Positions 30,187 to 33,448 of a DNA stretch of 64,000 bases are shown here, piece after piece. A program made the translations under genes and the position numbers. The DNA comes from a virus, in IMG/VR virus record IMGVR_UViG_3300042934_001067, positions 1 through 64,000 of that record; one strand, given 5' to 3'. Positions within the stretch are counted from its first letter, which is position 1, and each line of letters begins with the position of its first letter. The notes under the pieces are model-generated. The model saw only the letters and a list, made by a program, of their open reading frames with translations. It ran no database searches and was not told the origin of the DNA.

Positions 30187-30282
30187 GACTTTGCGCGGGC
30201 CGACAGTGTCACGGCCGTCTGGGCTGCAGTCATGTCGGTCACCTCCCGTCGTCGCCCTGGTTACGTTGCTACGCCGATCGTA

Positions 30283-30373
30283 TGACGCTCAGTACCCATG
30301 GTGTCAACTTAATCGACGCTTGAGACCGATTTAAGGTTCCGGGCGTCCACAATGTCGACGCTCGCGTTAGGAT
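30283..30373 (+). promoter_or_regulatory. Control region of the regulator cassette
   Basis: Holds an imperfect inverted repeat CTTAATCG...CGATTTAAG (30308-30334), spaced half-sites TGACGC/GTGTCA (30283-30306), and a -10-like TAGGAT (30368-30373). TAGGAT ends seven bases before an ATG at 30381, which would give a leaderless start. A repressor binding here would control both the cassette and, on the other side, the holin unit. Confidence 0.4.
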
Positions 30374-30425
30374 GCCCTGCATGAGTGAAGATTTTTCAAC
30401 ATCACGCCCAAGAGGAGGTGACCCC

Positions 30426-30941
30426 ATGCCGCTCGCCACCAAGATCCGGCGGCTGATCGACCTGAAGCGCCAGCCCGACGGGAGTGAGTACCCCCTAGCT
30501 GAGATCGCTCGGGAGGCCTCAAGGTTGTACCGGACCAAGAAGAATCTTCTGGTGAACGATGAGGGCGGCGAGGAGGAGAAGGACGTCCTCAACCGCCAGT
30601 TCCTCAGCGAGCTGCTGAGCGGGAAGAGGGCGAACCCTCCCTTCGACAAGATCGAGGCGCTGAGTCTCTTCTTCGAGGTGAGCCCCGCGTACTTCGCCAT
30701 CGGCGCCGAGGTGACGGAAGAGACCCGTGCGGCGGAGAACGAAGTCCAACTCATCGCTGATTTGCGGGAGTTGAAGGAAAAACTAGACACAGAGGGTGAC
30801 GAAGCAAGCGAGGAGGGTACCGAGCTGCTCGCCGCCATCTTTCGAGGGGCGAAGGAGGAAGACCCCCAGGCAGTGATGGGTGTGTTCCGTATGACCCTGG
30901 CCGCGATGAAGATGAACTCCAGGAAAGACCGGTCCTCGTAG
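30426..30941 (+). CDS. HTH regulator of the XRE type
   Basis: 171 residues from ATG 30426, which has a very strong SD (GAGGAGGTGA); a leaderless start at 30381 would add 15 residues. An N-terminal helical bundle contains YPLAEIAREASRLYRTKKNL, an insert, then FLSELLSGKRANPPFDKIEA and LSLFFEVSPAYF, the pattern of an XRE domain in which the recognition helix is followed by 'L...FGV...YF'. The C-terminus is acidic coiled coil. It leads a plus-strand cassette with a HELGH peptidase, the arrangement of ImmR/ImmA-type regulator pairs. Probable lysogeny or cassette repressor. Confidence 0.75.
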   Translation: MPLATKIRRLIDLKRQPDGSEYPLAEIAREASRLYRTKKNLLVNDEGGEEEKDVLNRQFLSELLSGKRANPPFDKIEALSLFFEVSPAYFAIGAEVTEETRAAENEVQLIADLRELKEKLDTEGDEASEEGTELLAAIFRGAKEEDPQAVMGVFRMTLAAMKMNSRKDRSS

Positions 30942-31012
30942 TCCGGTTGTCAGCCCCTTGCATTACGCTGAGTGGCGTACTTGACCAGGTTAGTGATCAC
31001 AGGGGGCAGTAG

Positions 31013-31552
31013 ATGAGAATGAGGCTGCGCCAGGGCGGTCTGAAGGACGTGTGGAGTCAGGCCCTGTCGGCCCTGGTGCTCCCCGTGTCCCCTTGGACCG
31101 GGGAAGCGCTGCTGCGGGCCTACGTGGAGCAGGTCAGGGGAAATGAACTCGTCCTGAGCCGGGAGTCCTTCATGGCCTCACCGGAGGGACCGAGCGGAGC
31201 ATGGATCCCCCTCGACAGTCTCAAAACGGACATCGTCTGGGCTCATCCCGCCGCGACGGGTGTCCAGCTCGACCACGTTCTGAGGCATGAACTCGGGCAC
31301 ATGGTGAACGGAGACGTGCCCGAGAAGCGCAACCTCCGCGACGCTGTGCGCCTCCTTCAGCTGAGCCACACGTCCGGCCTCGCCCGGGCCGCTCTCGGTG
31401 GCTGGAGGTGCCGTGCCGACAGCACCAGCACCGACAAGCGCGAGCAGAAGGCCGAGGACTTCGGCTACTTCACCGAACGCTGGGTAGCCCGCCACAGCCC
31501 GCGCGGAGCCACGCTGCTCGTATCGAACATGAGGCAGAGCCTCGAACCCTGA
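31013..31552 (+). CDS. ImmA/IrrE-like zinc metallopeptidase
   Basis: 179 residues, start preceded by a GGGGGC purine run. The zinc motif DHVLRHELGHMVNGD (HExxH, about residues 90-95) lies in the central helix; a distal acidic ligand may be KAEDFGYF (Glu/Asp near 150). ImmA-like peptidases cut a partner HTH repressor upon damage or signal. Just downstream of an HTH gene, which is the usual pairing. It could inactivate that repressor. Confidence 0.72.
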   Translation: MRMRLRQGGLKDVWSQALSALVLPVSPWTGEALLRAYVEQVRGNELVLSRESFMASPEGPSGAWIPLDSLKTDIVWAHPAATGVQLDHVLRHELGHMVNGDVPEKRNLRDAVRLLQLSHTSGLARAALGGWRCRADSTSTDKREQKAEDFGYFTERWVARHSPRGATLLVSNMRQSLEP

Positions 31553-31564
31553 CCTGGAGTACCG

Positions 31565-32848
31565 GTGACCGCCACACCTGATCTGTTCGCCTGGGCCATC
31601 GTGACAGCCCTCACGCTGGAGGTCCTGCGAAGGACCCCCGCCGCGATCCGCAACCCGCGCGGGCGGACCCTGTGGCTGGTCTTCTTCGCCCTCGACGTGT
31701 CCATGGCCCAGAAGATCCAGGGGGTCGGCGACTTCCTCCACCACCTCACCGGCTGGAACGACATCGCCACCCTCGTCAAGCACCTCCTCGGCGTGGCCGC
31801 CGTCGCCGGACTCCTGCACTGGGTCACCAGCGTCGTTCCCGGCCGCGAGGACGGAAGACGCGAACCCCGCTACCGGCGCGCCATCAGCAGCAGGCCACGG
31901 CGCATCGTCACCTGGGCAGCCGTCGCCGTCATCTTCTTCACCTTCTGGCAGTCCCAGCGCCGCCAGGGCAGCGCAGAGGACGGCGACTTCATCTTCGTCC
32001 AGGCGGGCCACTTCTGGGGAAGCCTCCACCTGCTTCTCTTCTACGCTTACTTGATCTTCGGCCTGCTCTGCGCCTCCATGATGTGCGCGGCGGCCTCCCG
32101 CGAGCCCTCCTCCCACGGCGCCTTCAAGTACGGCATGCAGGTCCTGTCCCTCGGATGCATCGTCGGCTCGATGTACGGCTTCGTCCGCTCTGGCTACCTG
32201 ATCGCCCGCCTCTTCAAGAAGCCCTTCCTCGGCGGCGAAGTCTTCGTGGACACCGCGTCCAACTTCTGCCTCGCCGGATGCATCCTCCTCGTCCTGGCAG
32301 GCGCGAACGCACCGAAGTGGGAACGCATGGACCAGCGGGTGAGAGCCCACGGTGCCGTCAACGACCTCTGGCCCATGTGGAACCGGCTGACCACCGCCGT
32401 CCCCTCGGTCATCTACGAGGACGCCGACGCAAAGCCCCGCCAGCGCACGCTCCCCGCACCCCTCGTCCCTCTGGCCGGGCGCCTGCACGACTTCTGGAAC
32501 TGGAAGCGCCTCGACGTCCGCCTCAGCAGGCGGATCACCGAAATCTGCGACGTCTCCATGCACCTGAGCCCGTACGTCCCTCCGCACCTTTACGAGCGCG
32601 TCGGGACAGTCGTCCAGGACCTCGGCCTGCCCCGGCACACGGTGCCCGCCTACCTCCTGCGGACCGCCATGAAGCGCAAGGCGGCCGGAGAGCCGCCGTT
32701 CGCCGAGCGACCGGACGCGGCCATCCTCGTGGCCGACACGGAACTCCTCGGCACCACGGCGAAGTTCCTCCCCGTCGGCAAGGCCATGAGCGACAACGAC
32801 CTGATGGACCGACTGGACCGCAGCATCAAGGCCGGAGTGAACGCGTGA
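31565..32848 (+). CDS. Multi-pass membrane protein with C-terminal cytosolic domain (MAB_1171c/DUF6545-like)
   Basis: 427 residues from a GTG. About seven membrane segments in the first ~250 residues (e.g. WAIVTALTLEVLRR, WAAVAVIFFTFW, HLLLFYAYLIFGLLCASMMC, FCLAGCILLVLAGA), then a soluble helical domain (RLSRRITEICDVSMHLSPYV, AYLLRTAMKRKAAGEPPF). This matches my recollection of actinomycete proteins called MAB_1171c family putative transporters with a DUF6545 tail, often beside an XRE/ImmA pair. Function unknown. Confidence 0.65.
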   Translation: MTATPDLFAWAIVTALTLEVLRRTPAAIRNPRGRTLWLVFFALDVSMAQKIQGVGDFLHHLTGWNDIATLVKHLLGVAAVAGLLHWVTSVVPGREDGRREPRYRRAISSRPRRIVTWAAVAVIFFTFWQSQRRQGSAEDGDFIFVQAGHFWGSLHLLLFYAYLIFGLLCASMMCAAASREPSSHGAFKYGMQVLSLGCIVGSMYGFVRSGYLIARLFKKPFLGGEVFVDTASNFCLAGCILLVLAGANAPKWERMDQRVRAHGAVNDLWPMWNRLTTAVPSVIYEDADAKPRQRTLPAPLVPLAGRLHDFWNWKRLDVRLSRRITEICDVSMHLSPYVPPHLYERVGTVVQDLGLPRHTVPAYLLRTAMKRKAAGEPPFAERPDAAILVADTELLGTTAKFLPVGKAMSDNDLMDRLDRSIKAGVNA

Positions 32849-33417
32849 CCCGCATCAAGGCCGCACGACTCCTCACGGACCTCGTCGACCCCAAGAACGT
32901 CATCATCGTCCTGTGCCTGCTCATAGGCGCGCACTACGGCTGGAGCGGCATCGGCTGGAGCACGGCCGCAATCTTCTTCTGCGCGGTCGTCCCGATCGTT
33001 TTCATCGTCCTCACCAGTGACACCCGGACCTTCGCCGACCGGCACGTCCCCGAGCGTGCCCGCCGGATGGTCGTCATCCCTGTCATCGTGCTGTCGGTGC
33101 TGACCTGCCTGACCCTCATGGTCGTCGGCGGCGCCCCGGCGCCGATCCTGTCCATGGTCGGCGCCATGCTGGCCACGCTGGCCGTCCTGTGGCCCGTCAC
33201 CAAGTACACCAAGATCAGCTTCCACACGGCCGTCCTCACCGGCGCCCTGGCTATGCTCGGACTGCTCTACGGCCCCTGGTGGATACTCTCCGCAGCCCTC
33301 GTGCCGCTGGTCGCCTGGTCCCGCGCCCAGCTCCAGGACCACACCCCGGTCCAGACCGTAGCCGGAGCAGTCCTCGGCGCCGTCGTCGCCGGACCCGTCT
33401 TCCTCCTCGGCCTGTAA
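32845..33417 (+). CDS. PAP2-like membrane phosphatase
   Basis: 190 residues from a GTG overlapping the previous stop by four bases (GTGA). About five membrane segments. The motifs SFHTAVLTGALAML and RAQLQDHTPVQTVAGAVLG resemble the second and third PAP2 signatures (SxH...; Rx5HxxxD-like), with the first Lys/Arg block less clear (VTKYTKI). PAP2 enzymes remove phosphate from lipid pyrophosphates or phosphatidic acid. Ends four bases before a bidirectional terminator, closing the four-gene operon. Confidence 0.62.
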   Translation: MTRIKAARLLTDLVDPKNVIIVLCLLIGAHYGWSGIGWSTAAIFFCAVVPIVFIVLTSDTRTFADRHVPERARRMVVIPVIVLSVLTCLTLMVVGGAPAPILSMVGAMLATLAVLWPVTKYTKISFHTAVLTGALAMLGLLYGPWWILSAALVPLVAWSRAQLQDHTPVQTVAGAVLGAVVAGPVFLLGL

Positions 33418-33421
33418 CGAC

Positions 33422-33448
33422 GCCGGGCCCCTCAAAAAGGGGCCCGGC
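33422..33448. terminator. Bidirectional terminator between convergent units
   Basis: 10-bp stem GCCGGGCCCC/GGGGCCCGGC with an A-rich loop, between the plus-strand cassette and the minus-strand gene ending at 33471. Confidence 0.7.

Follow-up and report, generated by a model that had tools for sequence, protein, structure and literature searches.

What would a helix-turn-helix (HTH) regulator, a zinc peptidase and two integral membrane proteins be doing together among the late genes of a bacteriophage? The question is raised by a cassette of four plus-strand genes, here called G1 to G4, in the first 64,000 nucleotides (the window) of IMGVR_UViG_3300042934_001067, a virus record of 156 kb. Judging from comparative sequence analysis, the cassette was not invented by the phage but is one form of a host operon type in which the last gene can be exchanged; that it is a phage-carried, sensor-like member of a widespread Streptomyces operon family is a reading to which we give an even chance.

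Recurrence of the cassette in chromosomes, plasmids and phages

DUF6545, the family to which the membrane protein G3 belongs, is present in 81 of 101 sampled Streptomyces genomes, and 53 G3 genes were recognized in 60 chromosomal stretches that were fetched. Of these 53 genes, 52 have a same-strand peptidase gene no more than 3 kb away, as do all 11 G3 genes from phages or plasmids; a same-strand HTH gene is found at that distance for 37 and 9 of them, respectively. The peptidase and the seven-helix protein constitute a near-constant core, to which an EspR-like regulator is usually joined. The last gene, which often shares a 4-nt overlap with G3, may encode a PAP2-like protein, a cytochrome P450, a short-chain dehydrogenase/reductase, an aldo-keto reductase, an amidase, a NUDIX protein, an AMP-ligase or others, and it tracks the clade of G3. 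When last-gene labels are placed on the G3 tree, 18 changes are required; with the labels shuffled the figure is 42.2, and none of 200 shuffles was as low. All PAP2-type rows fall in a single group of 26 with a support of 93. Distances among the HTH, peptidase and G3 proteins are also correlated (0.88-0.93 across 38 triads). Similar neighborhoods had been anticipated in actinomycete chromosomes, and in Streptomyces chromosomes this proved correct; the phylum-wide sample consists mostly of small genomes and is little informative on distribution beyond this genus.

The unit recurs in phage-plasmids as well as in chromosomes, in keeping with the conservation that the original prediction had demanded of it. 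Streptomyces phage Gilgamesh carries an identical gene order in gp98-101 (HTH, HExxH peptidase, DUF6545, PAP2-like), followed by a cis-prenyltransferase and ParA, and this form is also found in three circular plasmids and three more viral contigs. The UppS-like cis-prenyltransferase gene lies directly after the PAP2-like gene at L002:7825-8544, with equivalents at L017-L019 and L117-L119 in phages and plasmids of the Gilgamesh type. We rejected the prenyltransferase as part of every phage version because the window record has none. With the window G3 protein as the query, a scan of genome contigs returned a sole match, namely the copy of Streptomyces sp. MH60, which is carried on a contig of 156,949 bp and shares 88-96% amino-acid identity with the cassette.

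Some loci show further arrangements. At L057, a tandem pair of peptidase-DUF6545 units is followed by an aldo-keto reductase gene. L022 and L080 each have a member of regulator cluster C43 within a few genes of the module, and the one in L022 is annotated as ScbR-family (butyrolactone-receptor-like).

The four genes and their products

The original prediction of a tightly spaced, partly overlapping plus-strand cassette, in which an HTH regulator and an ImmA-like peptidase are joined to two integral membrane proteins, is borne out by the gene calls, by selection and by the recurring order. G1 (30426-30941, 171 amino acids) encodes the EspR-like HTH regulator, G2 (31013 or 31019 to 31552) a HELGH zinc peptidase of the ImmA/IrrE-like kind, G3 (31565-32848, 427 amino acids) the MAB_1171c/DUF6545 membrane protein, and G4 (32845-33417, 190 amino acids) a PAP2-like membrane protein. 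The gap between G1 and G2 is 71-77 nt and that between G2 and G3 is 12 nt, while G3 and G4 overlap by 4 nt. The start of G1 is placed at 30426 because AGGAGGTGA stands immediately 5' of that codon; an ATG at 30372, which was listed first, was rejected as it sits within a likely -10 box (30368-30373). Ratios of nonsynonymous to synonymous substitution (dN/dS) against the MH60 copy range from 0.12 to 0.44 across the four genes, which identifies them as constrained protein genes. Together with the recurring order, these values rule out chance open reading frames and confirm, at the level of sequence, four real genes under purifying selection.

The profile of the G1 family matches EspR of Mycobacterium tuberculosis over 128 residues (E = 4e-34), whereas a phage-only G1 profile covers 38 residues (E = 6e-5), and G1 itself has weak HTH_3 and HTH_19 matches. 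G1 is thus best described as a putative EspR-like regulator that is divergent in the phage. In G2, the HExxH motif and a downstream Glu are invariant among 43 relatives, 22 of which match Pfam Peptidase_M78 (best E = 1.2e-5); the window protein has no match to that family. A tblastn search of G2 against known phages gave no match, although Gilgamesh carries a homolog, and G2 therefore seems to be the fastest-diverging gene of the cassette.

G3 scores 108.4 bits against NF042915 (MAB_1171c), above the curated cut-off of 100, and 61.4 bits against DUF6545 (cut-off 24.4; E = 1.6e-16). Its AlphaFold2 model (pLDDT 80) shows seven membrane-spanning helices and, in the cytosol, a domain that is helical as well. 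Across the family, positive charges are found mostly in loops 3 and 5 and in the C-terminal tail, which is consistent with the predicted topology of seven helices with the N terminus outside and the C terminus inside. When the model was compared with the PDB, the closest folds were G protein-coupled receptors (GPCRs), at E-values of 0.12 or worse and TM scores, by target, of at most 0.54 among the matches listed, which is not significant; the resemblance is due in part to the abundance of GPCR structures. A G3 profile had no match among PDB sequences. The nearest viral models are membrane proteins of Gordonia phages (E = 0.007), and at the sequence level G3 weakly matches phrog_950. The BFVD models A0A7G8LIL3 (Gordonia phage Rabbitrun) and A0A1B3AYD7 (Gordonia phage Bantam), of 221-262 amino acids, resemble the seven-helix half of G3 only and are without DUF6545.

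G4 had been put forward as a phosphatase, a role that is not established by our analysis, since its match to Pfam PAP2 (20.6 bits, E = 4e-4) lies below the cut-off of 27.2 and catalytic-motif residues are altered. PAP2 is matched weakly by all 17 G4 relatives and the SR-x5-H motif is retained, but the first motif is not recognized, an invariant Gln replaces the motif Asp, and the second-motif His is an Asp in one chromosomal subclade. The structural model gives weak matches to PgpB, Aur1 and G6PC1, mixed with unrelated ones. In L129, L142 and L146, a lone PAP2-like gene stands beside genes of 67 and 108-114 amino acids, and genes of those sizes flank the full four-gene cassette in L096, L101, L108 and L110 of other Streptomyces; it looks as though G1 to G3 had been gained or lost next to G4.

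Genomic setting and control region

The cassette lies antisense to the leftward late genes. The original prediction placed it on an island between holin and head genes; a head-maturation-protease-like gene is indeed found on the left, while the supposed holin, the immediate left neighbor, is a small membrane-like open reading frame that matches a PHROG without assigned function. On the right are small genes without assigned function, followed by endolysin, tail and portal genes. A layout of this kind inside late genes is, as far as gene order can tell, that of a moron, an accessory unit. In comparison with known phages, DNA similarity across the 15-kb region is confined to pieces of the endolysin gene.

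Elsewhere, the window record has a ParA-like gene at 2341, an integrase gene at 93271 and three HTH genes besides G1 (86281, 100847 and 121430). Structural genes (portal, tail and endolysin) thus occur together with a partition gene and circular plasmid relatives, the hallmarks of a phage-plasmid. One such relative is pRLB1-9.1 (NZ_CP041653.1), a circular Streptomyces plasmid of 154 kb with ParA, baseplate, helicase and polymerase genes. The virus is likely to be a Streptomyces phage that lives as a plasmid, and as an integrase is also present, integration would be possible. Within pRLB1-9.1 (L160, NZ_CP041653.1 69862-71032), a gene for an ATP-grasp-modified ribosomally synthesized and post-translationally modified peptide, tgmA, occurs with an MvdC/MvdD-like ATP-grasp gene, and in Streptomyces sp. 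NBC_01220 the cassette on plasmid 2 is directly preceded by a toxin gene of the PemK/MazF type that has a small gene upstream of it (L019:3403-3947).

That the cassette would have its own control region and a closing terminator, as first proposed, is upheld by conserved blocks at 30243-30425 in an alignment with relatives and by a hairpin at 33422-33448. The control region contains a likely leftward promoter toward the late genes (30277-30307, minus strand), with TTGACA at 30302-30307 and TACGAT at 30277-30282 at a spacing of 19; both hexamers are unchanged across six related viral contigs, among which the spacer differs. For the cassette itself, the likely -10 box is TAGGAT at 30368-30373 on the plus strand, which is conserved in the window, L003, L004, L005 and L011, and L014 has TAGACT. 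A pattern scan of the cassette region for sigma-70 promoters found none, and both promoter calls, which we regard as likely, come from conservation and reading by eye. Further copies of the promoter-region motifs were not found within the window, and hence no regulon there.

Between G1 and G2, a noncoding element at 30948-30978 (plus strand) is a candidate operator or leader in the alignment of six contigs. It is nearly invariant among relatives whose proteins differ by half, and it occurs as a single copy within the window. An RNA structure for this element gained no support, as the predicted fold lacks significance. The hairpin at 33422-33448, by comparison, has a perfect GC stem of 11 bp that can form on either strand (-29 kcal/mol on the plus strand and -32 on the minus; z = -6), with none of 200 shuffles equally stable, and is probably a terminator acting in both directions.

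Proposed mechanism and alternative explanations

How might such a unit work? We postulate that the peptidase answers to a membrane sensor and, by inactivating the HTH repressor, induces the last gene, and that the phage carries this module as a moron, a proposal that we would rate as equally likely to be right or wrong. The cue for G3 would be a membrane-borne or hydrophobic molecule, upon which G3 would act, via DUF6545, on G2; because the peptidase and the seven-transmembrane protein are the near-constant core, G2 is most likely what G3 controls. G2 would then cleave G1 or unseat it from the control region, and the whole operon, G4 included, would be expressed more strongly. The PAP2-like protein may in turn act on membrane lipid phosphate, and perhaps produces or removes the signal. 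As carried by the phage, the module would be an independent unit inside the late genes, and it may also affect the divergent leftward promoter. We infer that a ligand is sensed, that G1 is proteolysed, that G4 acts on lipids and that the cassette is expressed in the prophage. A proteolytic switch fits the anatomy of the cassette, and by analogy with ImmR/ImmA an EspR-like HTH protein would be a natural target of the peptidase; HTH/metalloprotease pairs act as repressor and anti-repressor in integrative and conjugative elements such as TnSmu1 (PMC10233336). The exchangeable last gene is likely to be either the output or a gene that acts on the ligand.

Several observations weigh against this proposal. 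The receptor-like fold matches of G3 lack significance, and the NCBI name of its family is putative transporter. The motif Asp of G4 has given way to Gln, G4 is absent from pRLB1-9.1 and some related viral contigs, and standalone G4 homologs occur elsewhere, so G4 is not tied to the module. Among the chromosomal modules, 16 of 53 have no recognized HTH gene, and the peptidase may therefore have other targets. The distance correlations drop to 0.29-0.46 for distant pairs, and the association counts, coming from genomes mostly of one genus, are inflated by close relatives.

Could the cassette instead be the phage's own lysogeny switch, in which G1 keeps the late genes off by way of the divergent leftward promoter until a membrane cue from the host, sensed by G3, makes G2 destroy G1, as in ImmR/ImmA, and lysis follows? 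The HTH and peptidase genes are adjacent, as they are in ImmR/ImmA, for which there is precedent in mobile elements; a conserved leftward promoter-like element lies in the shared intergenic region; and the unit is carried by temperate phage-plasmids. VP882, a phage-plasmid too, is known to time lysis by host quorum signals. However, the unit sits inside the late genes, a position that does not match that of a main repressor, and such units abound in chromosomes, where their last genes are unrelated. Since the unit is far from both the integrase gene and the three further HTH genes, an accessory unit is likelier than a master switch, and we think it unlikely that the cassette governs lysogeny in this manner. 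The position, which resembles that of a moron, and the possession of a promoter region and a terminator would also suit lysogenic conversion or superinfection exclusion, in which the two membrane proteins alter the envelope or a lipid carrier such that other phages fail, and the cis-prenyltransferase added in Gilgamesh-type versions is in line with this. An exclusion or defense role had been raised in the original prediction but gains no support here, as PADLOC yielded weak HTH matches and no other defense-family match; the operon type is, moreover, widespread in chromosomes with metabolic enzymes as the last gene, which makes this explanation quite unlikely.

The family name and the phenotype of an M. 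abscessus MAB_1171c mutant, which forms about half as much biofilm as the control and is among the mutants with altered drug susceptibility (PMC8707978), could instead point to a regulated transporter or a self-resistance unit, with G3 exporting a hydrophobic compound upon induction by the HTH/peptidase pair. Seven helices with a cytosolic domain, and best fold matches that include no transporter-like fold, leave this very doubtful. Least plausible is an addiction (toxin-antitoxin) module that maintains the phage-plasmid, an idea we regard as highly improbable: although one study of Brucella abortus assessed a zinc metalloprotease/HTH-Xre pair as a possible toxin-antitoxin system of type II (PMC10538038), the wide chromosomal conservation and clade-matched last genes argue otherwise, and evidence is reported that immR of TnSmu1 is not an antitoxin (PMC10233336).

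Returning to the sensor-peptidase module, it is tempting to speculate that DUF6545 proteins are bacterial seven-helix receptors for self-made hydrophobic signals, which are made or altered by the product of the clade-specific last gene (P450, reductase, PAP2-like or others), and that they signal via the peptidase to the EspR-like regulator. Perhaps phage-plasmids have captured this system to sense or alter host communication in the choice between dormancy and lysis. This extension is a tentative one and, on balance, improbable.

Significance and comparison with known systems

About 80% of the Streptomyces species sampled carry the module, often more than once, and it apparently lacks an assigned function, in a genus known for small-molecule signaling. 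Its core of peptidase and seven-helix protein, together with the clade-matched last gene, gives rise to a testable hypothesis of membrane-to-DNA signaling via proteolysis, and the finding that two types of Streptomyces phage carry it, at sites that differ between their genomes, suggests an importance for phages as well. We found no published description or function of this gene combination in the open-licence literature, where earlier work may have been missed; a full-text search of that literature found no mention of DUF6545, and MAB_1171c turned up in the M. abscessus mutant study only. The parts are of known kinds, and their combination appears to be undescribed.

A close counterpart in gene content and order is Gilgamesh gp98-101 with its plasmid relatives, which has the same four genes in the order seen in the window; G3 identity is only ~26%, however, the site differs (beside ParA) and a cis-prenyltransferase follows. 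G3 belongs by curated score to the MAB_1171c family (NF042915, DUF6545), whose name implies a putative transport function, whereas the operon context suggests sensing. G4 shares SR-x5-H and weak profile and fold matches with the PAP2 superfamily (PgpB, Aur1, G6PC1), yet differs in its sub-cut-off score, its Gln and its unrecognized first motif. G1 may share the HTH and C-terminal architecture of M. tuberculosis EspR, to judge from the family profile, but the phage protein is divergent and its gene adjoins that of a peptidase, a pairing that is not known for EspR.

ImmR/ImmA, as in immRA of TnSmu1, resembles the cassette in having an HTH regulator beside a zinc peptidase on a mobile element. 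The cassette adds a seven-transmembrane protein and a variable last gene, its HTH protein is EspR-like, its type is common in chromosomes, and it does not lie near the integrase. VqmA of VP882 offers a likeness of another kind, in that a temperate phage-plasmid carries a copy of a host signal-response component; VqmA is a cytosolic receptor for a known autoinducer, whereas the cassette would combine a putative membrane sensor with a peptidase.

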